DNA from: Epinephelus fuscoguttatus | Taxonomy: Eukaryota > Chordata > Actinopteri > Perciformes > Serranidae | DNA length: 64,000 nt | Direction of reading: 5' to 3' | NCBI RefSeq assembly: GCF_011397635.1 | Contig: NC_064771.1 | Span: forward strand, 16,679,379 to 16,743,378 | In this document: positions 7,311 to 52,900 of the stretch, piece after piece | Layout of the letters: each line of letters opens with the position of its first letter | How positions within the stretch are numbered: the first letter of the stretch is position 1 | The notes under the pieces: model-generated | The model's input: only the letters and a program-made list of their open reading frames with translations | What the model was told of the DNA's origin: nothing | Databases searched by the model: none | Program-made: the position numbers and the translations under genes

Positions 7311-7654
7311 CGGGACGGCGCCAGTTCCATGGAGTCCGCTAGATCAGCTGCTGGCAGTTGGTGTTCTCAATCACGTCCGCAGAAAGGCTTCATAGGCTCA
7401 CCGAGGCGCCTGTGGAATAAGACACTTAAGTGAACCGGTGTACTGACGCGTCACTTTGTGTGGACAATTACATTATCTGTTTTTTACTGTGAAAACAGTT
7501 TAATTGGCTGCCTTCTCGGACTTTGTGGGGAAACGCTTTATTCCTGGCTGTGCATTTATTTTGCTGTTTCTGACGTTCCGGTGTACCAGCTGAGCCGGGT
7601 GAAATTACACCCCCTGGACTTTTTTTTGTTACCAAACTCCAAAGAAAAGTCACC

Positions 7655-8242
7655 ATGGCAGAGACGTCGGCAGCTCCAGCCAAAGCCAAAAAGACAGCCA
7701 AGCCCAAGAAACCTGCTTCTCATCCCAAATACTCGGAGATGATTAAAGCGGCCATCGTTCACGACGCGAGCCGGGGTGGAGCGTCCCGGCAGTCCATCCA
7801 GAAGTACGTGAGGAAGAACTACAAGGTGGGCGACAACGCCGATGTGCAGATTAAAATGGCCCTGAAGAGGCTGGTGGCATCTGGAATCCTGCGCCACACC
7901 AAAGGCATCGGCGCGTCCGGATCCTTCAGGTTGACCAAACCAGAGGACTCCAAGAAGTCAACCAAGGCAGCGGCACCTGCCAAACCAAAGAAGGCAGCCA
8001 AGCCAGCCAAACCCAAGAAGGCTGCAAAGCCCAAGAAGGTGGCCAAGACGCCGGAAAAACCCAAGAAGGCAGCTGCAAAGAAAGTGAAAAAGGTCACGAA
8101 AAAGCCGACACCTGTGAAACCCAAAAAGGCAGCAGCGAAGAAAGCTAAGCCAGCAGCCAAGCCCAAGGCAAAACCAGCAAAGAGGGCAGCCAAGCCCAAG
8201 CCAAAGCCATCCAAAAAGGCAACCAAAGGAAAAAAGAAGTAA
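7655..8242 (+). CDS. h1-0: Linker histone H1.0 (replacement H1)
   Basis: Single-exon reading frame of 195 codons, close to the 194 residues of human H1.0. Known role: H1.0 binds linker DNA at the nucleosome dyad, is associated with differentiated or quiescent cells, and is made from polyadenylated mRNA. Seen: a short basic N-tail (residues 1-22); a winged-helix H15 domain (about 23-96) beginning HPKYSEMI, with the RQSIQKYV segment and ending near GASGSFRL; then a Lys/Ala/Pro tail of about 100 residues with many AKPKK-type units. HPKYS and the SRQSIQKY and GASGSFRL blocks favour H1-0 over the replication-dependent H1 variants. The start ATG has good context (gtcaccATGG). No stem-loop was noticed after the stop, and an AATAAA lies about 500 bases downstream, both as expected for H1-0. 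The gene stands alone, not in a histone cluster. Confidence 0.95.
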
Positions 8243-26200: not shown

Positions 26201-29200
26201 AGTGTTTGACCGCTATAACAGTAACACACATTTATAGCTCTTCTCTGAAGGATGTTAAAAGGCATGACACAAACACTAAAAGATACAGACTGAGACAGGG
26301 AAAACTGGGGCAAAGCAAGGGGGCACAAAAACACAGTTACATTTTTTTCATTAAACAATGCAATTAGTGCACTTATTGTAAATTCAATAGAAATTCAATG
26401 AACAGAAAGAACATTGGACTGTTTGCCACGTTCATTTGACCAATTCAATAGAAAATGGCAGTTGTTGTTAGTTGTTACGGTGACAACACAGGTCAGTGAG
26501 GCTGTAAAGTGTTGGTTTATTTATACGAAAGTTAGCCTGCTACAATGGCTGCAATGGCAACAGTACACATAACAATGCCACTCTGACCATAACGCTTTGT
26601 TGATTTGAACGTGAATGTCCATTTTACTCTCACTCTATTTCTGTGGTAACTTCAGAAGATGGAGGTTTTTGACACTGCTATCCCCTCTCACCGTTAGCAG
26701 AGTACTGGATGGCAGTGACAGCCACTTGATGGGGATGCAGCTTCATCTCCATCTCTGAGGAAGAAAGCCGGAAAATCCTCAAGGTCCCGTCGCTGTATCC
26801 TGCAGCCACACATGCGCTCTCAATACTGGAAGAGGTGCTCCAGCACACACAGCCACAGGCCTGACCCACAGAGAAAAACCGGAGGGCGTATGACGTTGCA
26901 ATCAAATCAGAAGTTGTACAAGTTACTCTATTTGTGTAAATTGTAAAATCCCCCAATTTTTGCTGACTTTCCTGACAAATAAACAGAAGTCTAAGATGTT
27001 CGGCCGAGGTGTCAGTTAGAGAAAGGATCACAAGTCCTTTAGTTTATACTTGACCTGACCCACCTATTCATTAAGAGGTGTATTCACTCACCTGGTTGAG
27101 CACCTGGAACTGCACCACCAGTTCGTTGCTGGGGGCTGACCACACCCTCACGCTGCCGTCCTCGCTGCAGGTGGCAAAATATCTCTCATCAGAGCTGAAC
27201 ACCACATCATTGACCTGGACAGCACATAGCAGTACACAGAGAATGAACATCCTGAGAAGTCACATCATGGAAATTTCATCCTTCTTGTCTGGCCATTTTT
27301 GTGAGGTTGCTACTCTCTCCTGCTGCACTTAAAATCATACTTCTTTTCTTTTGTTTTTGTAAATATCACCCCTTGCCCAAATCAGTGAGCAATGCTTTTT
27401 TAATTAGACATCATCAGAAATAATCATCATAATTATTAATGTTGACTCACCAAAAAAGCTGACAGGTAAATGAATAAAACACAAAAAGGAAACCGTTTAC
27501 GGTCGACAGCCTATTTCATCAGTATCATTACAAGTAATGATAGGCTAGTAATGATACAGCAAAATTGCTGTTTGCATAAATTAAAATAATTAAGTATAAT
27601 TAAGAATCTAAACTAAAGTGAGGCTATAATGACATTTTGTAAAAAATAATTAGCAAGTCTACATTCCTCCAGCAGGGCTGTCCACAATCTGGGTAGTCCT
27701 AACAGCAAAAACCAATTCTTTGATCTGAAATGGCCTTTAAGTTTGATAAAGAAGCCAATTAAGTAGTAAAACCAGTGTTTTCCTCGTATCAAAGCAACTC
27801 TGTGTTTTCAATCCTTTCAAGAGCTGAGGAGTTATTTTAGTTTTCCTGACGTACACCGACTGAAAGCTTGAAGTAAAAAACAATTGCAATTAATATGTGT
27901 TAATTGTGCTGGTGGCCTTGCCATCAGTTCATTGAAATGTCATCAATAACTCTTAATTGCTTCCCTGCTGCCTCCTTACTTTGATTTTATCATCTTTATA
28001 TATCCTGGTTCAAACACTCTGTAATATGAAATACTCCTCTTCCCCAGGGATCACCTTTGATGTGTGATTGACAGGTCATTAATACAGATTCTCACAGCAG
28101 ACATTTGGACTCTCAGATTAGTGGGACAAGCAGATGTTAAGTAATTACATTCATGATGTCTCAGTAATAAGTTTCAGCAGGGGTTTCCACAGTGTGTTAT
28201 AGTGGAGATGACAGTTATAAGCTGTATGCTCCAGCTCATGATGTGCATATGGTTATTTTTCATATCCAGAGGCTCACACTGGTACCTTGGTTTTGTGCCC
28301 GCTGACCAGCCGGATGCTGCTGTTGTCGGACCAGTTGATGTACCAGAGGGTTCCTGCTGTGGTGCCCACAATGCCCATGTCCATTGTGTTATCAAATGCT
28401 GCACTGACAGTCGTCCCATCCAGCATTATCTCCTGCTCCAACGCCACCATGGTTGCTCTGAAGGAAACACCAAAAACAATGAGGTCATTAACTTAAATCT
28501 AGACATGACTGCTTGAGGATGAATTGTGACCACATTCTTACTTATTATCTGTTTCACACAATACATTGTAACAAACAATTCTTCTAATTTGTCTGCTTTA
28601 TATGCATGAAGGAGAGCTTACTGCCAAAAAAAGTCTACAAGTCAGGTCTAGCAAAAGTGAAAAAGCGCCATCAAACGACATTAAACCATTACCACACATT
28701 TGTATACAGTATCCATATGGGCGTGTAGTAGAGAGGTGCTACATTCCCATATAGAATCATCAGCCACATCAATAAATGGCTGCTGTGGCAGACACTACAT
28801 CTCCCAGAATGCCCCACCACTCACACAGGTGTAGGTGTGTAAGGCATTTAATTGAAGCAGGAATGAGGAGTGAGACCTATGGCAGAAGAAAGGAAGTAAA
28901 GGAACAGAGAGCACACTGCTAGAAGGAGATGGGCAAACTGACTTAGAAAAGCCCAACTACATTCAGGAAAGCACCTCAGCCAGTATCATTCAAGTGGAAA
29001 AAGATAGACTTTATGTTATCTAATATTCTTAATTTAAATTAGTTTTTATGTTTTACCCATTTCTAGCTCTTTACTTTTAATGAGACTCATGGGGGGTGTA
29101 CAACTACACTTTTTAACAAGTCTCTTGATGTAAAAAAATACCCACAATCACACAGGAAAAAAAATTAGACTTAGTTCTTGCCCTTTTGCAGAATCTTATA

Positions 29201-32200
29201 GAAACTAAAATGAAACAACACAGGCATGCCACCATGGTTCTCTGAGTAAACTTATGTATGTATTCATCATAAGATAATGGAATAAAAGGAACTGCTGCCT
29301 TCATAAGATGCAAAGTTAGTAGAGAATGAGCTACAGACCTGTCTTCCCCATTGCAGACATTTTCCTGAGGCTTCACGCCCTGTACGGCTTCTACCTCCCA
29401 CAGTCGCAACCAGCGGGTGTTGCTGCCAGTCAACAGACGGTTCCCTCGACACAGCAGAACTCCTACACCAAGACACCATCAATTCTGTTACAGGTTGTAG
29501 AAACCCAGGACTGGAATACATTTAAACCACATGACTCAAAATGACAGCAATGTTTTAGGCAACTTTGTGAAATAAAAAATAGCAGACGATAATGGTGTTG
29601 TGTGTTTTTTCCCATCAAAATTATTAAGAGTATTCAGCTTAAAAAAATATTGTTGTCCAAATTAGATGGTTAGAATACATTCCATTTGTACCTATCTCTC
29701 CCTCATCAGCTTCCCAGGTCATGAAGCATCGCTGTGTGTTTACGTCCCAGACGCAAACGTGTCCTCGATTGGTGGCGGTGAACAGAAACGAGTCCATGTG
29801 GTAGCACAGAGCCGTCAGCTCCACATCACCCACCTCTGCTGGTGCTCTCACCCTCTGGACCTACAAGTGTCAATGAGTGGTTAATCTTTACTGTATGTAC
29901 AAAGCAAATACATCCGAAACATCTGTGTTTTTTGGTGGTCACTTACCTTGAGGTCTACATCGGAGCCATGCGTGTGGAGGAGACAGAAGTAAACCCCTTG
30001 GCTGCCCACACAGGCCAGCTGGCTGGCTGCGGAGGGGCTGAAGGCCATGTCGTGGATCGGCCCTGACACACTCACACTGGACAGCAGCTGGAAGGTCTTA
30101 GTGCTCCACAGAGCCACCTCTGGAGCTGAGAAGTCTCCTACAGTGGTATGGCAAGAATCAGAGTCATTTGATTGGCCGCAGTGGAGACATTTTCTGTATT
30201 TTAATCAACCATGTCAAGTGGTGCAGCACATCAAGTTGAAACACTCACGACAAATGGATGCAATCCAATTCACATTTTACTGACCAGCAGAGAGAAAGAA
30301 GCGATCATCCCTGGAGAAAGCAAGACTCTGCACCGCCCCTCTGTGGTAGGAGATGGTATTACAGCAAGTTCCATTCTGGACATCCCAAATGCAGATGAGG
30401 CTTCTGCTACCATTACTGCCAACAGCTGCTGATGCCACTGTCTGGACAGGAAGTGACAAAGACACAGAGCACCTTCATGTTAAGCTATGGGCTTTCCTCA
30501 TTTGTCTGTTTTGTGCCTCCTTGTCTCCTCCATTCTCCATCCTCCTGCCTGTGACCTAAATATTGATCTCAGCACGCCAACTTGAGGGATGTGTGTGTCC
30601 TTTGCGGAAGTCTTTTCAGCACCCGTTAAGTCAGCTGTGCCACACATCATATTTAATGGATGCCACTTTAAATTGATGACTCCGAAGCACGGATGTCACA
30701 TTTTGTTAAATGCCAGTTAACTCATCTCCTCTCTCCTTGTGCTTCTCCCTTGCCTCCTCCGCTTGCATCTTGAGTGAGAGGAACTAAGACGCGATTAAAA
30801 GAATCAAGGATGTACAAACGTAGACATGAGAAAAGCCTTCTGACACCATATGACACGGAGCTAACAGGATGCATGTTGAACATCAGAAAATAGCCTGCTT
30901 CATAATCCTGGATTTCTTAGGCCTCAAGACTGTTGGATCTGAATTTTTCTGAAAGATGATTCGCAGACATCTGATCTAATAGTTTTTGATTAGACTAAAA
31001 AAATTACTTCAACCCTCTTTGTTAGGCAAGGACATTCATTTAAATGGAACCAGCTGCTTTAATACTTTTATGAAGCAGCCTTGTGATTTTCCTCTGGCCG
31101 TTTACAATCCTCTGTGTTGACTGCCACTTATTCAACGCATTAAAAGTGTTTTCAGAGCCTCACTTGGAGCCAGCTTCTGTTTGAAGGTAAGACTGAGTGC
31201 TGACTCCCCACTTAGACAAGTGCTGAACACAAAGAGCTCACACAACACTGACCAACCAAGCAGTACAATGAAGTGTGAAAGCCAGTTCAAGTCCTGACAA
31301 GACATCCCTGTCTCTGGTCTCCTGGTGAGAACAGACTCAAGGATGTTAGTTTCCCTCTGTGTCTCTTGCCTGATGTGAACCCATTAGTGATCCCCTGCAG
31401 TGACCAACCAACTCGCTGATATACCAAATTTTGTTCCCTGCTGAGCTGAACAGCTGAGGCTGGTTGAGTAAATTTTGCTGCTTTCCTCGTGGCACCAAGT
31501 ATCCACAGTAGATATTATATACTGTATGTTTTCTTGAGAGTGGCGCATGTTGAGACAAGACCACCGAGTATCCCTATATTGCTTAAACAGTTATGTATGG
31601 AATGAGTAAATTTTCACAAATGTCAGAAGCATTTCACAAAATTCTCATACCTGTGCAAAGATGTTGACAGCCGTATATGTGTCTGAATATGATCTTCTTT
31701 TCCATCAGTTTCTTTCTCAGAGGAATAGACTTTGGCTAGGTTTACAGACACTAACTTTCGGAGTGCGTTTAGCACAACAGCTGTTGTCAGAGTAACAAAA
31801 ATGTCAAACTTGAGACTAGACTTTTAGAAGTAAACCAAACAGCACAAAAAAGAAGAATGTGTCCCAGAAAAATCTTGAGCAGTACTTTGTCCACCCCCCC
31901 CAACACACTGCTGGCTGATGCAAATCCTCTCTCAACAGTTTAATACTCTACTACCTTTAGCAACATGACCAGCTGTACCGACACTATTTAAAAAGACACC
32001 AGGAGGAGTACCCAAGAGACCTGAGTGGACAGTAACATGAGCTCTGTCATTATTGCTATCGATACACCACAAAATCACTGTTATAAACTGCGAAGTCCAG
32101 AACTATGAAAAGTACCTGTGCATCATTTGTGACTGCCAGACAGGAGATCTCCTCGGTGTGACCCTGCAAGTGCCTCTGACTTCCTGTATGAAGGTACTCC

Positions 32201-32525
32201 ACCACCACCACACAGCCACACGAGTATGCAAACAAACCTGCAACAGAAACCAATTGTTGGATAGGCTGAAAAAGTCAAGTTATGACTTTTAAATTTGAGA
32301 ATTTTTCTGTATACATACTACACACTAAGCACTTGGATTTGACAGACAATAATTATACTTTAAGTTTTCCCAAATAATATTTCCACACAGTTTTTATTTT
32401 GCTTTCTGTGTACTATAATAACCTTGGTCAGGGCTCCACACCATGTTTCCACGCCCATTGCCATTGTAGCCAATCATTGCCTTCAGCTTCATGCCCTCTT
32501 TGCCTGGTTGGGGAGCCACAGCACC
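23288..32525 (-). CDS. wdr90: WDR90 exons 30-43: second WD40 propeller region and C-terminus
   Basis: Exons: 32,423-32,525; 32,116-32,237; 30,285-30,441; 29,947-30,137; 29,692-29,860; 29,339-29,462; 28,286-28,457; 27,092-27,214; 26,692-26,860; 25,886-26,016; 24,520-24,699; 24,215-24,331; 23,567-23,651; 23,288-23,445 (residues about 1,184-1,849). Landmarks: [69 protein letters not shown] and the terminal [10 protein letters not shown], all close to human. The stop TGA is at 23,288-23,290. Confidence 0.95.
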
Positions 32526-35500
32526 CTGCGTCGGAGACAACATTAAAACTGGACAGAAAACAAACTAATACACCCGGTGACTGCAGTTAGTCATTGTAGT
32601 CATTATACAAAGAGTTCTTTACCTGATCAAGAGTGGAGGTCTTGAAACGTGGTATAAAGTGTCTGTAACAATCAGGACGTACTGGCATCCTCCCTTTTAA
32701 TTCACCTAAATGACAAAAAGAGCAGACAGAAGCAGTTAATAGAAGCAGAAGCAGAAACTCAGTAAACTGTTAATGCAGGACAATGCAGTGGGGCAGTTTC
32801 CAGCACCTATGTGATTTGTATTCAGGGAAGATGTGTTGAGCAACTCTGTGACTTTGAGGAAAGAGGAAGCAGGTATGGAGTTAGGGGAAAGACCTGAACC
32901 AGGGGCTGGGACGGCAGCGGTTGTGATGGTTGGGGTGCCATCACAAATCGACAAGGAGCCCAAACCTGCCAAGGGGAAACACAAGGGAAAATATGACTGA
33001 GGGTGACAATAAAGTCAATCATCAAATCTCTCCATCCATTGAACACCTCTGTTATGGCCATTGTGCATGAATCTTCGTGTCACTAAGCAGCTACTAAAAA
33101 ACTTGACATTCATTGCTGAGAGCCGGGATATTTCTTGGTAAACCACTGATGCCAATCACTTTTAAAATATCATTGTGGTTCTCCTTTAAATAGAAACTAT
33201 ATATCCCTGTATGCGCAAATGAAATAAACAAGGCCACAATTTAAAGGCTATTACTTATATTTTAGTAAAAGTGCACTCCTGAATAGTCTTAAAATATCAA
33301 TAAAAAATCCTGTGGAGAAAGCTTTGCCTCCTTCAGTTCAATAATAATCTAACTGAATGGTAAGTTGGCTTCCAGCAGGAGGGTGGCAATTTACACTGAA
33401 CGGTGAAGGAGCATGAATGCGAATTAGAAATGCATTTCTCTTTCCTGCACTGCTCAAAACTACAACTGTGTCAATACCTTGCAATTATCTGAAGTCTACA
33501 AATTCATGAATGGACTAGTCAATTACGCATCACAGTAAATCCAGAGGGAGAGGCGTTTTCCAAATCTGGAACGCTTCAAAAATGTCAGTCACGACAGAAC
33601 AGTCAGAGCAGTTTCGCTAATGCACGCTGACATTTGAAAAAAGAGCTGTTGATGACATATTAAGGAATTGGTGGAAAAGTTTCCAACAGTAATAACACCT
33701 GACTCACTGCTAATTCAAGATTCTAAGTTTTCTACTGAATAGATGTAAATCTACTCAATGTAGCTGAATTTTTAGCCACTGAAACTATATGGACATCAGC
33801 TACGCGTGTGCATTTTGACAGCTATTCATACAGTTAAATGTAGATAGAATGTACTGGTGGGTAATTTTAGAAACAAAGAAAGAGAACTCACCCCCTTGGT
33901 CGACTTGGTCAAGGGTGCTGATGTTAAGTTGTGGTGGCGGTGACGAGGGGAGGGGCGCTGTCTGTCGGGGCATCCCATTGGACAACTGAACTCCACTCGC
34001 TTCAGCTTCTGGTTGAACTGTTGCATGAAAACACAACAGTACCAATTTATTTGTAATAGGTGGGACCATGTGAATCAGGTTGATCTTTTATTATTGTAAA
34101 ATAAATATTCTAAATTAAGTTACCTGATTTAGGAGCTGAGATGTAGCTTACTCTGAGAGGTGAACTGTGTGTGAGGAGAGAGTGTGTGACATTTTACTAA
34201 TAAATCTTATAGAATCAAACACACACATTAACACCAAGATTCAAACATGTAACAAAGATTATTACCGGCTATCAGTCAAAGAGTCGACAGGATGTGCCAG
34301 GAAGTCCCAAATGAATATGGCATCCCCCACTGAGACTACGCCCAGTTGGTCAGGGGTGAAGCTCACCTGGCGGATCGGCTGACTGTGGCCTATGAACATC
34401 TGGTACAGAGAAACACGTTTCAGACTCTGCTGACACAATATGAGCCACTGATAGTCCTGAAGCTAAAATCAATGAAGACAACATGCTTTAGTGATGAATA
34501 AACTGTTTACCACACAAGTGCACCGCAAGATGTACATGTTCAACAGTATATGGTGAGGTGAATGATTAATTAGACGATCTACAGAACATGAATTGACAAC
34601 AATTCTGATTATCGAGTGAACGTTGTAGTGTTTCCAAGGAAAAATTACAAAAATCTTTTTGTTTCAGCTTCTCAGATGTTAACATTTGCTGTTTTTCTGT
34701 GTTAACTGAAGTTAACTCAAGACCTGAATAACTGAATTGGATTTTGAACTTTAAAGCAGACTATTATTGATACTGGAATTTCTAAGTTTACAATATTTAC
34801 AATATACAATGTAGATACAATATTTTGAAACATATTGATATTAAATACCTTTTTTTGACGGGGAAAAACTGACATTAAAGGCATAGTTAAAAGTTACATT
34901 CTGTTATTTCTTTAATTGCCTTTATGAAACAAGGCTATAACATGACAACGACAGCATCACCTTTATTGGTCAGCAGCAGTGAACCAAAGAATGATTAAAG
35001 CAAGTATTAAGAGAGAGTGTAAATGACTTAAAATTGGTAAGGTAAAAGGTAAATTAAGGTTTGTAAAAAGGGTTGAAGCTAAGATAAAAATTACTTCCTG
35101 TCCCCTTTTTTCTTTGATCCAACAGGGCTTTTATTTTGACGCCCTCTCCTAGCCGAAACAGGATATTAAAGCAGAAAAGTTTGAGAGCAAAGGAGGGAAG
35201 ACAAGCAACTTTGCTCTGCAATATCAAGCTCTTGCTTCTTATATAGCTAAGCACCTGGCTGGAATGGGAACAAGGTACAGTGTCATTTAATGTTTTATGA
35301 TCTCTGTGTGGTGATGTGCGTTTTAATTGATTCGACAGTAAACAAGTGTTTAAACTGAAATGTATTGCTGACGCAGCAGTCATGCTTACAATAGCTGCGG
35401 GCTTAATTGAATAATGGTAACCTCACTGTGATACTGACCTTCCTTTGTGTTTAAAGGTTGATAATGTAGATATGTATTTGCTGTGGTATTTATGGATTAT

Positions 35501-38500
35501 GTACACATATATAAGCAAGAGCTAATTTTATCTATTTGTGTGCTTTGTAGCTCTTACAGTGTTTTCAGAAGAAACTGTGTTTTTTGGAGGAAATGTGTTG
35601 TGTAGAAAAAGGTGATTCAGAAGGAAAAGGTTAATGACCGTGTTCACTAGATGCTTATTTGTCTCACTTGTAAAGTAAATAAAGCAGCGGCAGAGACTTT
35701 ATCAAATATTCATCCGAAGAGAAAAGATTATATTCCAGTCGACAGTACTCATTCTAAAAGGTATCAACTGTTGACTACCTGTGAGTTGATGTCGAGCTGC
35801 ATGTTATAATCCCACACTTTCACAGCATTGTGTCCTGCCGTCAGCATAAATCGACTGTCTTCACTCACAGCCAGGGACGAGCACTGGTGTTTGTCGACCT
35901 TAGACACCTGTCAGGAGGACAGAAATCCAGTCAGAAACACACACTCCACCATATGGGTGAATAAGAATAGTAATAAGATGACTGTGTGAAGACAAACTGT
36001 ACATATTGCATCAAAACTCAAATTACAGACACATTTGCTACATTTGTAATGACACCTCTTTACTTTTCTTTCTACATCTCAAGTAAATGCTCAATCTTAG
36101 ACCCCCTTAGCAAGCCATTTGTTGATCTTGAGGACCTAACATGGTCGGGCTAATGTGTTAAAGATCAGTATTGGTACCTCTCTGAGCAGACGGCCCGTCT
36201 TGGTGCTAACCCAGAGGATCTTGTTAGCAGATGTGGCGACCAACAGGTGTTCCGTGGAGGCTGGAGAGAAGCAGATCCTCAGTGCAGAATCAAGACGGGT
36301 GCTTTGTACGTCCAAAATACTCACATCTACATGAAGCAGCTAGACAGAGATGGAGTGGGTCAGTGTGGACATGCAAGAACATACAATAAGACATAAGCTC
36401 AGGTGTTATGATGAAAATATTATCTTCCTGGAATGTGAATATTATGCACATATAGATAAACCTTGGGTACATCTTCTGTATGGTTCTGGGGAAGGGGTGA
36501 TGCTGCCTCACTACTACTTCATAACAGTTTTCTTAAATCTGATTTTAATTCACGTTAGCAATATGACAAATTATACTGAAAGGTGACAGTGTGTAAGATA
36601 CCTCATCCAGAGACTGTGAGTCAGCGACAGTGACAATGTACTCTGAGGGACCGATAAAAGCCAGGCAGCGGCTGTCACTGCTCACTTTGAGAGCATCTGG
36701 AGCGTGCTCGGTGCCACGGGCCACCACATTACCTAGCCAGTCAAGGACAGAGCAAATCAAATAACGTAGATGTTGAATGTGGCTGCCTGATATGCTTAAA
36801 ATGATAAGCTATTGAGTAATTCACTATCTCAACTTTTGAAGTTCTTATTTCTGATAAGTGTAACATAGGATGGACTGAGATTAACTCAAGGTGTGTTTGT
36901 GCAGTGGTTTGTGCCAGAGTATACATACACACAACTCTGATCATGTTGTGGTCTTCCTCGGAGGCATTGTACAGTGCCAGAGAGCCTTGAGAGTCAGCAC
37001 TGTACATGAACTCCCCGTCCGGAGAAAAAGCAAGACCCACCACTTCACTTCTGTGCTGCCTATAATACACATATGTATATGTAAATACAAACAAACACAA
37101 AAATAAACAAGAGCACAAAAGCAGTCAGTATTCTCTTGGTGGACACACACAAAAGGCATGTTAAAATGCACTTAAACAAACACACACAAGACACACAAGG
37201 TTTAGTGCATCAAACCAGATGAGAATTTTTTTATCTGAACGTGCAGTCAAAACTGCATGTTTTAGCTATATCAAATTACAACTGTGAATGTGTGTCCTTA
37301 CCATCAATGCCAAAGTAGTAGTACAGTACTACTATTTCTTCCAGTCATTTGATGATTTATTGTAGAACTTTGAATAGGTGAATAGGTGTCGCAACATGTC
37401 AATGATTTCAGAGTGGATAGGCCTGCGTGCATATACAAAATATCACCATAATCCAAGACTGACATTATAGTTAACTGAACAATTGTCACTCCGTTTTCTA
37501 AAGTGAAGCATGACAGAATGCTGTACAGTGCACCTAGTATAATACCTTCTTTGTGAGCTTGAGCACTTGTTTTAAATGAAAGCTTGTCATCTAGCCAGAC
37601 ACCCAGATATTTGTATTCTGTAATGTGTTCAATTTGGGCCCCATTTAGGAATGGATGTGGTAGGCATCACAATCACACTTCCTTGACATTATAAATAGCA
37701 TAAATTTAGTCTTAGACCCATGTAAAACTAAAAATCTGAGATTTTTCAAGGATTTCTGCACACAGCACAAATAACTATCATCTGCATAAAAATGTGCTTT
37801 GACTTTTTCTACTTAGGCACAGATATCATGTATGTACGGAACAACAGTGGGCCTATTATTGAACCTTGTGGCACACCATTTTTAATCTTAAAAAAAACCC
37901 ACTAAAAATGCATCATCAAACCCATTAAAGGCCAATTTATCCAGAAGTAGCCTGTGATTAACAGTGTCAAAAGCCTTTGATAAATCTAGAAACAAAGCTG
38001 CACAGTATTTTCTATGATCAAGAGCAGAAACTACATAATTTACAACCACATTCGCTGCTGTAATGGTGCTGTGGCGAGCTCTAAACCCAGACTGACAGGG
38101 ACATAAAATAGTATTTGCAGGCAAGAAAGTATAGAGCTGTTCGTTTACAAAAGATTCCAACACTTTTGCTAGACATGTGAGTTTGAAGACAGGCCTATAG
38201 CTATTCAGATCATCTGTCTCTCCTCCTTAATGTAGAGGAGTTACTAAGACTTGAGTTTGAACCAGAGCAGAGTATTACATTAAAATGTGTCAAGGGCACA
38301 GCAATGATGGGTGCAGCAAGCTTCGATGTCAGCTCTTCCTGTCATTGTGAAGCAGAATTCACCAAGCACTGGATTGCTCACCCACTAACAGGGAACGTGA
38401 GCTGGGTTTAGACCGTCGTTAGACAGGTTAGTTTTACCCTATTGATGATATGTTGTTGCAATAGTTATCCAATAGTAATCATACTCACTATATTGTGCTT

Positions 38501-41500
38501 CTAACAGCTGGCCTGCAGCTGAGACTGGCCAAGCTGGCAAGAACTGTATCTAGCTGAACTTTCCAGTATTTTGACATTACTTGACACTTCATATAATAGC
38601 ATATCATTATTGTGCCCACGCAAGTATACAAAATAAAGAACTGCAATCACTGCTGGAGCTCGAGCTTCCACCTTATTTTAGACGTACTTGTGTTCAGCCA
38701 GCAGTTTGGCACTGGAGATGTCAAAGACTCTGACGATGCCGGTGCTGAAGCCACAAGAGAAGACCTGCTCGCTGGGATGGAAGGTCACTGAGCAGGGGCT
38801 GTCCTCTGACACAAAATCATACAACTAAGAACAGGAGACAACAGACATTTAGTTAAAGATCAAATAAGCCAACTGTAAACCGACAGTGCCATTTTCTTTA
38901 GTTTAAAGTTACACTCATTAGAGGAGTGCCTTCACATCAGTAGAAAAAAAAAAGAAATACTTTTTTGTTATTCAAAGTCTCTTAAACAAGTCCAAATAGT
39001 TTGCTTTGTGGTTAAGTTTGTTGTTGTGGAGATGGGAGTGCAAAGTCAAATACATAACATTTTCAAAATTCTTCAAAATGGGGAGTTTGATGCTCAGTTT
39101 TGCCAACAAACACAGATGACTGAAGCAACCATCTCTTCTTTTTCTAAAGCACAAAACAGTCTGACAGAGAACAAAAACAGAGCCTTGAATGTCTTGGCAT
39201 CAACAGAGAAAGGCCAACTGACAAAAAGCCACATACTTTTTTTTTCCCTTCATTTTTTTGTCTGGTGCAACACATTGAAAGATATGGTGAATATATATTA
39301 AATGACTTCAAAAAATACAGTATGATTATTATGAGGAGGTGAAGAAAAAGTTGCTGAAAACCAAAAACGTGTTGTTGAGTGACCTGATGCAGGGAATCCA
39401 TGTTCCAAATGCGCACTGTGCCGTCAGAAGAGGCTGTTGTGAGATGCCGACGGATGCCATCCACACTGAAGCACAGCACAGTGTCTGTATGAGACCTCAT
39501 CAGTGTGTTGTAACCACGGCTGCTCACATCGAGGAAGCCTAGGTTACCAGTAGAGGTGGCTGCAAGGACCTGAAGGCTGTCTGATGAGACTGACGCCAGA
39601 CTCACAGGTCCCTCATGCTCTGGAAAAAAAAACCAACAAAAAAACACGTGTATGAGTTTCTCCAAACAGATTCTTTAGTCTGTGTGAGGATGTAAGAGTG
39701 CTCACACACATCTCATATTAATGGTTCAAACATGGTGGGAAACTCCTTACTTCCAATTTGCTGGAAGTTTATAGGCACTGTCAATCACAACAGATGAAAC
39801 CCGACAAACAACCCCCCGCAAACTAGAAAATGACAATCTAAACATACATAAACTAAAGATTATATCGCTGCCTGTGGAGTGGGAACTGTCACCTACTGTT
39901 TGCTGGCTGCAGGTAAAATACTATGTTACATCCCACTGAGCTATGCCTACCAGCCTCCAAGAAGACGGCAGAAAAATCAAGGGGCCAGAGTCGCAGGAAG
40001 CCATCTTCAGAGCCCGTGGCACAAAAAGACGAGGACACACTGATGCTGTTGATGGCAATGCCTGGACCTGGGACACACACAAACACAACACAACAGCGAT
40101 GTCTTTACAGGCTCTTCACAAAGTTTTTTTTCCATCCACCCAACCCCCACTTGAAACCAATAACACACCTGTGTTGAAAGTCCATTTCTCCCTGCGGTTT
40201 GCATGCTGCTGCTGTGCAGGCAACAGCCTCCTGACATTTCTAATAGTAACTCTGCTGTAGTCGATCTCAAAGATGTAGCCACTCCGACTGCTGGCAAATC
40301 TATGGGAGGACAGTCAGAGAGTTAAAATAGTCATCTTTTAATATAAATGCTCTAATCTAATTCTGATTAGAGTCAAACCTATATCAACTTCATGTAAACT
40401 TGGATGGTTTCCACCACTGGTTTGCTCACTCACAGTGTTCGATCATCAAGGTGCTGGTTGAAGTTTCCCTCCTCAAAGGCCACATCAGTGAAGTCAAGTG
40501 AGTGATATTCACCCAGGTTGACTGGACAGGATCGCAGCGTCCCATTTCTCACTCGCCACAGGCGAATATTGTCACGACCACATGACACCATCCTGAAACA
40601 AGCACACTTGCCGATTAAAGCATGTTCTCAAGAGTGGGCACATGTCTTTTCTACTCCTGTGGCTAGAACTTTTTACCTTTCCCACACTCTCACCACATCC
40701 TTCTACACCTTTCTGCACTTGAGACACCTGACACAGGAAGTGTGTGAGCGAATAGATCGAAATCAGAGTGTGAAAATGAATTATTTGCTGCAGACCTCTA
40801 ACATGACATGAAACAGTATACATGGAATACAGGAGCACTCTTTGCATTGCTGTGCATGAAGATTACGAAGTAAAAACACCTGAGTGACAGCTGAAGATAA
40901 AGAAAGGACTGGACTGGGCTCCATTTAACTCTATATAACCAATCCCGATCAGTTAAAAAATGCCTTTATCAGGCCCACTATCAATCTTTGAGATCGGTTC
41001 AAGTCATCTCAACCAAACATGCAGACACAACACCATATACAACCAAAAATACAAACACAGAGAATAGAGGGTACCTTGTATCATCAAAGAAGGCAATTTT
41101 CATGGTGTGGATGTCAACATCTGTGTGTGCTTTGGCTAAGACGGTCACCTCTCCACCTTTAGTAACATTCAGAGTGTTCCACACCACCACCATCTATGAA
41201 AAAAACACAGACAGTTGTAAGTCACCACAGTCTCTCTCTACAGATTCAGCTCATGCAGCTCATAATTACCTTTATACACATTAGAAAACTAAGCCCTTTC
41301 ATTTTCATGTGGGAAAATTTGCATTTGTGGCACTTACGGTTTTACTGTGGCTGTCTTTACCCACTCCACAGAGAACACCACCGCCGTATGAGAAGCTTCA
41401 AAAAGGGAAAGAGAACAAAAAAGAGTGAGCAGTGTTCAACATAACAATACACCTTGTTGTATGGGGTATAAAAGCTTATCTTAAGATAGTTGTGTGTGCA

Positions 41501-48620: not shown

Positions 48621-49500
48621 TGATAGTGAATATCGCCAATGGGAAATCCACCTGTTGGTGTCTCAGTCTTGCTACAACTTGTCAAAACCAAAACTCGAGC
48701 AGCTAGTGTACATTTAGCTAGCAAACACACAGCTTAAAGTGACCGGAAATGTCCCTTGTCCATTTCCCACAAACTAAAACGATAAAACATTTAGTTTCAC
48801 ATCATTATGAGGTGCGAGGGCTCTTCCAGTTCTTCCACGTACCGCGTAAACAACGGTTTTGATTTGACACCAAACATTTGCAGCAGCGGTTATATCCTTC
48901 CCGCTCCAGCCTCCGCCGTTGCCAACGACACGCACGACGCTCATGACGTTGGCGCGTTGCTTTCCCTGGTGCTTCTGGGTAATGAAGTTCACAGAGCAAA
49001 CAGTAATACAGAATAAAAACTGGCATTTTGGAGTACGACAGCCAAAACTCCATACATTATCACCCTGTATATGTTGATAAGAAGACACTACATATAACAC
49101 TAGTGTGGATTAATTTAACAATTTGGAATTTACAACCTTTTTTGTTTAGTTGCAAGTTTCTGTTGAGTACAGTACTGCTCTTATTTACTCGCCTTTGTTT
49201 ATTCCACCCACCAGTCATATCAAGTAATATAGGTGATCACTCCACAGTCTACTTTCTTACAATGAACTACCCATCCTGCAGTACAAATACTCAGCTTCCG
49301 TCATCACATTAAAAAAGCCAGTTTGAACAAATATCATTTTAATGATAATGTTTAAGTTTAAGTTTAAGTTTTAAATGATCACAAATACTTATCCACATAT
49401 TCACAACAGATTTACAGTTTACATAATAACAGTTACTTATGTACAGTTTTACATATCTACAGCAAACCGCAAATAATCTTAAAATGTACAGTGAATGCAA
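48621..49500. promoter_or_regulatory. WDR90 5' UTR/promoter and spacer to the upstream receptor gene
   Basis: Between the WDR90 start codon (48,620) and the end of the receptor's extended reading frame (49,509). 48,800-48,960 is CpG-rich compared with its surroundings and contains a TGACG core near 48,946 and a GTTGCC RFX-type half-site at 48,918, so it is the likely WDR90 promoter. Candidate receptor polyadenylation signals (AATAAA on the - strand) include 49,198-49,203. Open frames here show no protein similarity. Confidence 0.5.
49198..49203 (-). terminator. Candidate polyadenylation signal of the receptor gene
   Basis: TTTATT on the + strand, AATAAA on the - strand, about 310 bases beyond the second in-frame stop of the receptor. 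It lies close to the WDR90 promoter, so the two tandem genes would be separated by only a few hundred bases. Confidence 0.35.
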
Positions 49501-49508
49501 AAATGTAT

Positions 49509-49907
49509 TCAATCTGAGTCTATATTTACAACATGTGGGAGTAACTCCACAGGATCTGGTAGGTGAATGACGAAGGACATCGCCACAGATGATTGTCCAG
49601 CGTGATGCTGAGCCCCATGCTGCAGGGTGTCGTCTCTGTGTACCACTGAAGGACAGTGCAGCAAAGAAGCGTCAGGCTGTGGGGACGTTGGCTGAACTTG
49701 CCGTCTAAAAATCATTGAACTCTCCGGAGTGGGTGAACCATCAGGCACTGCTCTCATTGTTGTGGCAGAGGATCTGTTGCGCTCTGGCACCGTGGCGATG
49801 GAGAAAGTGTCCACTCGGGAGTCAAGGACGGCTAGTCACTGTCCACAGCATACAATCTGGGCCTCTATCCTCCAGCTGCGTAATTTTCTCTGCAGCTCGG
49901 TCCTAAC
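49509..49907 (-). CDS. Receptor last exon: short tail, TGA-CTAG stop, and 108-codon in-frame extension
   Basis: The exon begins at 49,907 after a CTGGGTGCAG acceptor with [17 protein letters not shown], matching helix 8 of the family, and meets TGA at 49,836-49,838 after 23 codons. The bases after the stop are CTAG. The same frame is then open for 108 codons to TGA at 49,509-49,511. The extension is Ser/Thr/Pro/His-rich (e.g. PERNRSSATTM, DGSPTPESS), like the phosphorylated tails of related receptors. Either the tail is made by stop-codon readthrough, or a recent nonsense change shortened it, or the base is a sequencing error. The entry spans the whole open frame; the conventional CDS ends at 49,836. 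Confidence 0.75.
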
Positions 49908-52900
49908 CTGCACCCAGAGCAGAGTGGAGTCATGTAAGAGTTAATGTGCCATTTTGTGTAGGCTACCAACTTTGTGACATCTTCCAGTTTGAAGCTTGAA
50001 GGAAAACTGGATTTAAATTTGGAAGGTAAGGCTCTTGGACAAGAATAGATGACTAAAACATAAATTCTATCTTTTAATTCTAATGCATCTTCAGATGATC
50101 CGTCCAGCCCTGTGTCCCCATCTGAGGAAGATAAACACAGATCCTCCCTTGGCCTTTCATGATAACTATTTTATTGGAGGACATATTGTCCCAAAAATAA
50201 ATGTGATAAACAATATTATTGTCATTTTATGTTATTAAGACCATTTAATGCCACTGATATGATGATTATATAGTAGCATAACGATGCAAAGGCATGCAGA
50301 CACAAGTGCAATTTTGCCCAATCCTCCCATTATCAGGATTAACAGTGTTTGAATATGATTCAAGTTAAATTTTACACTGATACACCCATGTAGATTCATG
50401 TATGTTGTCTCTCTGACACTGTCACTGTAACATATGGCTAATCAGTACCTTCTATGTAAGTTAAGAAAAATGAAATGAGAACATGAGATCAAACAAACCT
50501 CTTTATTGGCATAGCAGTAGAGCACAGCCACCAGAAAGCCCTGCAGAGAGGTCACAGAAAAGTCCTGTTTACTATATTTGCTATACAGTAACACATCAGA
50601 TAATTGTTTTTATAATATCATCAATAGCAAACAGTCACTCTCTGGCCCACATGAACCTACCTGAAACGAATTGAGAAAAAGGGTGAAGAAGACTTTAACG
50701 TAGCGCAGAACACCTGTTGTCTGCTCATCTGTTGCAAAGATAAATATGACCTCGTGAACCCCAAACAGAGGGATGAGGGTAAGGGTTGCCTTGGCAAGCC
50801 TAACAGAACAAATCAAACAGAGCAATTTGTCACAACACCATACACACTGTTTCTGACATTTTGTGATGCCTTGGTTTGAAAAAATAAAAAATAAAATAGA
50901 CAAAAGAGCACGCTGACACAACTTGCCGAAGTTTGTAATCAGGGTCTCCTGTCTGGTTGCTGGCTCGTAATTTGGAAAAAATGACCCTCAGCACCTTCAT
51001 GAAAATCAGAAAGTTGATCTGTTGATCAAAGAAAATTTATATTTTAATTGTTGTATCCAATGCAAACAGTGTATATGATACAATATATTACACAGAGGAG
51101 CTTAAATTGTCAGATTATTTTTCATGCACTGAGTAGACTATTTGCATAAGTCATCCTTACTATTGAAGCAAAAAGAATTGGGAAACGAATGATCCACCAG
51201 TAGTTCATGTTCTCATTGACAGCCCAACACCTGAGAAGAAAAGGCAGCTGTTACAATTTCTCCACTATCTAATCTGGATCAGCGGGGGGTCAGAGGTCTA
51301 GACATGAAGGGATCAGGCACATGAGGACACGACACACACACCTGCTCACACACTTACTCTTTGTTTTCTTTCAATTGCTTCATCACTACCCAGGGAACCA
51401 CAAATAGAAGTGGAGATCCTAAGACAGTGACAGAAAAGACTGCAGAATTCAGTGCTGCAGGTGCTTTTAAAGCAAGTTTAAAGGGACAGTTCAGCCCAGA
51501 ATCGAAAAATTACATTTTTCCTTTTTCCTGCAGTGCTATTTATAAGTCTAGACTGTTTTGGTGTGGGTTGCTGAGTGCTGGAGATATCAGCAAAAGAGAT
51601 GTCTGCCTTCTTTGAAATATAATGGCGCTAGATGGCACTCGGCTTGTAGTGCTCAAAGTGCACAAATTATACTTTTGAGAAACTCAACAGCAGTGTCTCT
51701 TTCCAGAAATCATGACCTAGCTACTCAAGATAATCCACAGACCTTGTTGTGAGCAGTGTTGGAACTATTTTCTTTCTACCAAACTATACCTGTCAACCAT
51801 ATCACTGCACAGATGAAGGCATGCAGCTACTCATCAGGCCCTCAGGAAGTGTGCTGGGCTTTGAGGCCAGTTGTTGTAGTGGGCAAACAGTGTAATTACA
51901 CCATCCCATGATGTCATGTGGCCCAAAAAGACCCTTTTCCATTGATTTACATGTCAACAAAGACATCTGTAAATTAGTGGACACATTGTTTTGAGCATCA
52001 AAACTCCCACAAAATGACTTGTTTCAGTCTCAGGATTTGATCCATTCGGTCTGATAACATTTGGAAAGTCTAGAAGGACCCCACGATTAACTCATTGTAT
52101 CCCCATTCAAGTTAGCGGTGTGCTCAAGCAGCAGTAGCCAGCTTGGCTGGTGGAAGTTTCTAGTGCACCTGATCTATGGGCACAATGATGCTGATACAGC
52201 TCTGATCATCCGAGTGAGTTACAGTTAAACGTTTTCAGCTTCACAAGCAACTGAGCAAGCATCATAGGAATTGATGAGGCCCCTTGTCCAAAGCTGTATC
52301 CAGTTCTCTTTACACATCAATGTTACTCATGAATAAGAGGCTCGTGCTCGTGACAGTGCAAGAAGTAAACATCGATGGCATCCTCCACAGCTGAGCTCAG
52401 TGGTGTTAGATTAGCTTGCAGTAGATGCAAGCTTCCCTCTGTGCGATGATATGGTAGGCAGGGGCAGTAGAAAGAAAATAATTCCTACATGAAGCTGCTC
52501 ACGGTCATGACTTCTGGAAAATGACATTGCCGTTGAGTTTTTTTTTTGCCGTTGAGCTGTCTGGGTCATGAGTCCTAGACGAACCTTTTGATGCATGTTA
52601 ATTTGGACACAAAGAGATGGAACTTACCCCAGCCAAGACAGATGTAAGGTAAGTATTTGTTGTTGTCGATGAACACTGAGGCAATAAGCACAGAGTACAA
52701 ATAAATTGCCTCTCCAAAGAACCAATAGTGATTGGCCAGGACACAGTACTGCATCATTACCTGAGCTACCCTGCAGCCAATAGCAGCCTAGAGGACATGG
52801 ACATAAAAAATGTACATTACATAAAGCTAATTTTTATTACAACAAATAATAATAAACAATCAGTGGTAGTTTTTAAGACCCACCTGGTGACTGAGCATCT

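Follow-up and report, generated by a model that had tools for sequence, protein, structure and literature searches.

The receptor gene and its neighbours

The window, by which we mean the whole stretch of 64,000 nucleotides of Epinephelus fuscoguttatus DNA that was analysed, lies at C20:16,679,379-16,743,378 in a genome of 1.047 Gb and 26 contigs and carries on its minus strand a class B1 receptor gene at 58,461-49,509, of which 12 exons can be joined in one frame by reconstruction from splice signals. This exon set comprises the 12 resolved exons, without the signal-peptide exon, and ten of the 11 donors of the joined exons are GT while one is GC. The intron with the GC donor (50,926-50,800, minus strand, CTTCG/GCAAGT) leaves the frame unbroken. 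The 11 exons before the last one, as given by the splice reconstruction, are as follows:

58461-58359, 58152-58045, 56270-56149, 53635-53529, 53040-52884, 52787-52628, minus strand: receptor exons before the last
51418-51358, 51230-51161, 51018-50927 (GC donor), 50799-50661, 50540-50499, minus strand: receptor exons before the last, continued

As these resolved upstream exons are intact, the gene does not have the look of a decayed one. Its product carries HRM and 7tm_2 domains (Pfam, 2e-19 and 6e-76, respectively), and its best match among solved proteins is the human glucagon receptor (452 bits, E 2.1e-134), compared with 431 bits for GLP1R, 394 for GIPR and 359 for GLP2R. It is a secretin-family (class B1) GPCR of the glucagon subfamily. 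Elsewhere in the same genome we found glucagon receptor genes on C19 and C3 and a GLP-2 receptor gene on C20 at 0.39 Mb, named by the best PDB match of the stretches tested (GCGR 112 vs GLP1R 99 bits on C19, GCGR 62 vs GLP1R 50 on C3, and GLP2R 55.5 vs GCGR 43 on C20), and no close ohnologue of the receptor was seen in this genome. According to PMC8312260, Glp1r was lost in bony fish and Grlr is absent from mammals; PMC3679108 reports GCRPR from medaka, fugu, tetraodon and stickleback and not from zebrafish, and both sources describe the receptor as missing in mammals. Given that two gcgr genes and one glp2r gene lie elsewhere and that bony fish have lost Glp1r, the gene is most likely, by elimination, that of the glucagon-related-peptide receptor, gcrpr (grlr), with Gipr as the alternative.

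Downstream of the receptor, also on the minus strand, lie exons of a WDR90-like beta-propeller gene (about 26,700-39,700; Pfam WDR90_beta-prop_4th, 1.6e-26), and between them a reverse-transcriptase fragment (37,888-38,226, minus strand; RVT_1, 8e-15) that is probably a LINE-type remnant. A linker histone (H1-0-like) gene occupies a single exon at 7,646-8,242 on the plus strand (Pfam Linker_histone, 6.5e-26).

A stop codon followed by CTAG and a long open frame

The features around the end of the receptor gene are the following:

49839..49907, minus strand: last exon, part before the stop, with a putative helix 8 (placed by position) and a 23-residue tail ending in VCCGQ
49836..49838, minus strand: first stop TGA, read from the sequence and followed by CTAGCC
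49832..49835, minus strand: CTAG motif directly 3' of the TGA, next letters CCGTCCTTG
49512..49835, minus strand: in-frame extension of 108 sense codons, LAVLDSRVD...VNIDSD, G+C 0.53
49509..49511, minus strand: second in-frame stop TGA, with the best G+C change point near it, at 49,534
49338..49343, minus strand: ATTAAA, a candidate polyadenylation signal from a motif scan, in A+T-rich 3'UTR

The sequence-only reading had reported a TGA at 49,836-49,838, a CTAG directly after it and 108 open codons down to 49,509, and all of this was confirmed. From the first stop onward the sequence runs CTAGCCGTC..., so that the extension begins LAVL. While the last 23 residues of the short form hold two Ser/Thr, the extension would add 21 more.

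The readthrough motif in published work and in the opioid genes of this fish

Readthrough is described in PMC5868278 as known from few vertebrate genes, and candidates with UGA-CUAG were, according to PMC4132726, found with alignments of 29 mammals. In the same sources, all 17 newly tested human UGA_CUAG stops leak, at 1.3-6.7% compared with 0.7% for UGA_C, the other six having been leaky in earlier work (PMC5868278), while readthrough reaches 6-17% in the four best genes (PMC5868278) and about 31% in OPRL1, with 1.5% for UGA-CUA alone (PMC4132726). PhyloCSF is positive in 4 of the 23 human UGA_CUAG genes and not in the other 19 (PMC4132726), so the motif alone is no proof of function.

The same motif is found in opioid-receptor genes of the genome studied here. 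A search with the human OPRK1 tail found six such genes. In five of them the stop is TGA-CTAG and the frame runs on for a further 27-34 codons; the signal is therefore kept in this fish. By type, two of the five are kappa, two delta and one nociceptin, and the sixth, the mu-type gene L060, has TAA as its stop. L055 is of delta type by its matches (272 bits vs 255 for mu, 241 for kappa and 188 for nociceptin), and the types of the others are assigned by tail likeness. The two kappa-type extensions begin LAVE (CTAGCAGTG) and LAMD (CTAGCCATG), and the context of the receptor's stop, given above, resembles both.

Among the opioid genes themselves, the two delta-type (OPRD1) copies, L055 (C17:34098570-34098692, plus strand) and L056 (C8:25774741-25774860, minus strand, called delta type by likeness), both have TGA-CTAGGC and extensions of 31 and 27 codons that end alike (LQSEVTQISTT and LQTEVTQFSTT), with five synonymous and two replacing changes in 11 codons when compared by eye. 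L057 (nociceptin-type), L058 and L059 (both kappa-type) have TGA-CTAG and extensions of 34, 28 and 28 codons, and a motif [LV]T[QH][IVF][ST], also recognised by eye, lies near the end of all five opioid extensions.

Readthrough needs no more than 12 nt 3' of the stop, and the search for downstream RNA structure after the receptor's first stop found none beyond that of shuffled sequences (z +0.79). The earlier proposal that this is a UGA-CUAG readthrough stop is backed by the motif itself, by the leak tests on human stops (PMC5868278) and by the five opioid genes of the same genome.

How much could be due to chance

One rival explanation is that the gene ends in an ordinary terminator after a short tail, with a frame that is open by chance in a G+C-rich stretch of 3'UTR and a CTAG that is coincidental, possibly with a slight and functionless leak. 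Such an explanation needs the motif and the open frame together. Of 9,286 other TGAs in this genome, 11 (0.12%) have CTAG directly after them. A frame open for 108 codons or more is found after 79 of 8,755 TGAs overall and, where G+C is 0.50-0.56, after 28 of 488 (about 6%). This background covers 215,648 bases, real exons included; the receptor's own TGA had been removed from it, as had overlapping loci, the opioid loci and those fetched for TGACTAG. A looser background gave near-identical values (12/9,432 for CTAG, own TGA included, and 86/9,812 and 29/554 for the open frame). In a first-order Markov simulation on the extension's composition, 469 of 20,000 sequences stayed open as long. The statement of the sequence-only reading that a random frame would rarely remain open over this length was therefore too strong for the frame alone, and the matched count speaks in favour of chance. 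What is unusual is the combination of CTAG, an open frame and a fall in G+C that lies near the second stop and not the first.

This fall is clear from the composition around the two stops: G+C is 0.51 between the start of the last exon and the first stop, 0.53 over the extension and 0.25 in the next 209 bases, and values after the extension range over 0.25-0.31. The best composition change point, at 49,534, has a log-likelihood higher by 24.7 than a change at the first stop and by 3.8 than one at the exact end of the extension. We compared the receptor with 12 control stops, namely those of the two gcgr genes, glp2r, a crhr-like, a vipr-like and the H1-0 gene, five opioid second stops and an OPRM1-like first stop (the names crhr-like, vipr-like and OPRM1-like being given by eye). 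The 327 nt after the receptor's first stop exceed all 12 controls both in G+C (0.529 vs 0.349-0.498) and in the length of the open run (108 codons vs 1-39), and after the second stop the corresponding values are 0.306 and 9. Left out of the controls were six single-exon 7tm_2 frames (L009, L010, L011, L013, L014 and L018; G+C 0.306-0.394, open 8-46), the end of which may be an intron, the five motif-bearing opioid first stops (G+C 0.367-0.535, open 27-34) and the OPRM1-like second stop (G+C 0.437, open 44). One of those left out, the first stop of L057, lies above the receptor with 0.535 and is followed by a G+C of still 0.498 after the second stop, which argues for the chance explanation. On the other hand, that explanation needs an unusually G+C-rich 3'UTR stretch whose end and the next stop are about 25 bases apart.

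Tail length, homology and coding signal

Measured from where the last exon begins, tail and extension together make 23+1+108 = 132 codons, compared with 121, 122 and 140 in the three paralogues of the same genome, and the presence of tails about as long in these genes argues against a chance 3'UTR. Homology searches with the extension gave no informative match: it found only itself and one match at E 3.1 in its own genome, one chance match at E 6.6 in the PDB and none in Pfam, and the best 60 of the 75 PDB matches of the receptor end before the TGA. Smith-Waterman comparisons were not significant with either human tails (score reached by 171/2000 shuffles for GIPR and 340/2000 for GCGR) or fish tails (1529/2000 for gcgr on C19, 1004/2000 for gcgr on C3 and 1935/2000 for glp2r), and the fish and human GCGR tails are likewise without significant homology to each other. 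A visual likeness of the extension to the human GIPR tail (RA[LV]PxGS) was dropped because of the shuffles that reach its score. For the receptor, the two sequence collections scanned, one bacterial and archaeal and one viral, contained no orthologue, which was to be expected.

The sequence-only reading had also described a phosphorylatable tail with Ser/Thr clusters. Ser/Thr motifs in the extension are not enriched over shuffles, and two PxPxxP-type phospho-code matches, with 1.1 expected in shuffles, are therefore not evidence. The extension has one acidic dileucine-like sequence, DPVELL, which is a weak signal (P 0.08).

The tests for coding do not all agree, but most of them speak against a well-kept coding tail. 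A codon-position model, for which 11.2 kb of coding sequence from the same genome served as the training set, gives the whole extension a score of 0.055. All 30 coding segments score higher (lowest 0.065), and among 500 non-coding windows of matched G+C 21% reach this value. However, its first 30 codons are coding-like (frame difference 0.24), and while the five opioid extensions pooled score 0.164, one ordinary opioid tail (L055) scores 0.052; the extension may thus be under constraint in its part close to the stop, or under none. Base use differs between codon positions (chi-square 16.5, P 0.011); among 1,643 windows of matched G+C, 4.6% have a chi-square at least this large, and of the 46 open ones none does. 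The codon-usage score is no better in frame than in the other frames; its model was trained partly on mis-oriented loci, and the later codon-position tests led to a like conclusion.

The weak codon-position and codon-usage signals both favour an ordinary terminator with a lucky 3'UTR, as do the 19 of 23 human UGA_CUAG genes without a positive PhyloCSF extension (PMC4132726). Taking these points together with the coincidences that it requires, we regard this explanation as unlikely.

Other explanations and the favoured reading

Under a recent stop gain, an ancestral tail of 132 codons would have been cut short, either in the lineage or in this one animal, perhaps through decay of the CpG in an Arg codon, and the CTAG would again be coincidental. 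Such a history fits both the 121-140 codons of the paralogue tails and the otherwise intact state of the resolved part of the gene, but a random gain precedes CTAG about once in 840, and a freshly silenced tail would keep its full coding signal, while that of the extension is weak; we consider it improbable. More improbable still is an alternative splice by which the TGA is removed, so that the long tail needs no readthrough. Some donors and acceptors do match in phase, for instance a GT at 49,846 and an acceptor at 49,645 (pyrimidine fraction 0.8), but the donor at 49,846 is poor (GCT/GTGGAC). Of the seven acceptors to which the preceding exon could be joined in frame, none exceeds 60% pyrimidine over a 20-base tract, and splicing to them would cost the receptor its helix 8. 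That the UGA encodes selenocysteine, or that the TGA is an assembly error, is hardly to be believed even though the codon is the right one and a single wrong base would do, given that a search of the 1,301 bases at 48800-50100 gave three Rfam matches with E up to 10, none of them a SECIS family, and that an error creating exactly TGA before CTAG is unlikely.

On balance, we therefore lean towards genuine readthrough at UGA-CUAG into a tail that either still codes or did so until recently, and the receptor probably joins the class of UGA-CUAG readthrough genes as a new case. Under readthrough, most ribosomes would stop at the UGA at 49,838 and leave a receptor that ends just past helix 8 with a Cys pair (...VCCGQ). 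The CUAG after the UGA would let a near-cognate tRNA decode the stop in a few per cent of ribosomes, which would then translate 108 more codons and produce a minority receptor whose tail matches in length those of this fish's glucagon and GLP-2 receptors.

The strength of this reading differs between its parts. Since the human UGA_CUAG stops are all leaky, a minority long isoform is likely, and by analogy biochemical leakage would likely give a few per cent of the receptor with the extension, whatever the evolutionary status of the latter. A selected function of the extension is about an even bet. Starting from the 4 of 23 human genes with positive PhyloCSF, we moved the odds up for the composition shift and the tail length of the paralogues and down for the weak codon signal. 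Of what the sequence-only reading proposed, the readthrough stop is well supported, and a functional phosphorylatable tail kept by selection is a possibility for which the codon-position signal is weak; we infer that a tail kept by selection could alter arrestin binding or trafficking.

Implications and comparison with known systems

Our results are also compatible with a broader idea, which we put forward tentatively and with slightly less than even confidence, namely that a secretin-family receptor lost in mammals uses a conserved UGA-CUAG to switch the ratio of an almost tail-free form to one with a full tail. If so, readthrough would toggle phosphorylation or endocytosis of a glucagon-type receptor. 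As GCRPR is missing in mammals, mammal-based screens would be blind to it, and the literature that we searched, consisting mostly of papers available without subscription, contained no earlier readthrough case in a secretin-family or glucagon-type receptor. Confirmation would bring class B1 receptors, besides those of class A, into the range of UGA-CUAG readthrough and would mean that tail length is set by translation and not by splicing, so that one mRNA gives forms with and without a regulatory tail.

Within the same genome, the glucagon receptors on C19 and C3 and the GLP-2 receptor on C20 belong to the same subfamily and have a C-terminal tail of comparable length in one last exon, but they differ in having a single stop after this long tail, without CTAG. 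The kappa-type opioid copies share the LA[VM] start with the receptor's extension. Among characterised genes, OPRL1 and OPRK1 (Loughran 2014, PMC4132726) are like the receptor in being GPCRs with UGA followed by CUAG and a cytoplasmic, Ser/Thr-bearing C-terminal extension; they are, however, class A receptors with extensions of 28-34 residues that are conserved beyond mammals, whereas the receptor is of class B1, with 108 codons seen in one genome. Another parallel is VDRx, the readthrough form of the human vitamin D receptor, which according to PMC5868278 also combines UGA_CUAG with a long extension (67 aa) that has no known domain and weak evidence of selection, although it is a nuclear receptor and its readthrough has been measured, at 6.7%. 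Finally, the AMD1 C-tail, likened here by extension length, is also a long extension past a stop that is read through, with the second stop 384 nt downstream, and differs in that ribosomes pause at this second stop (PMC13025110).
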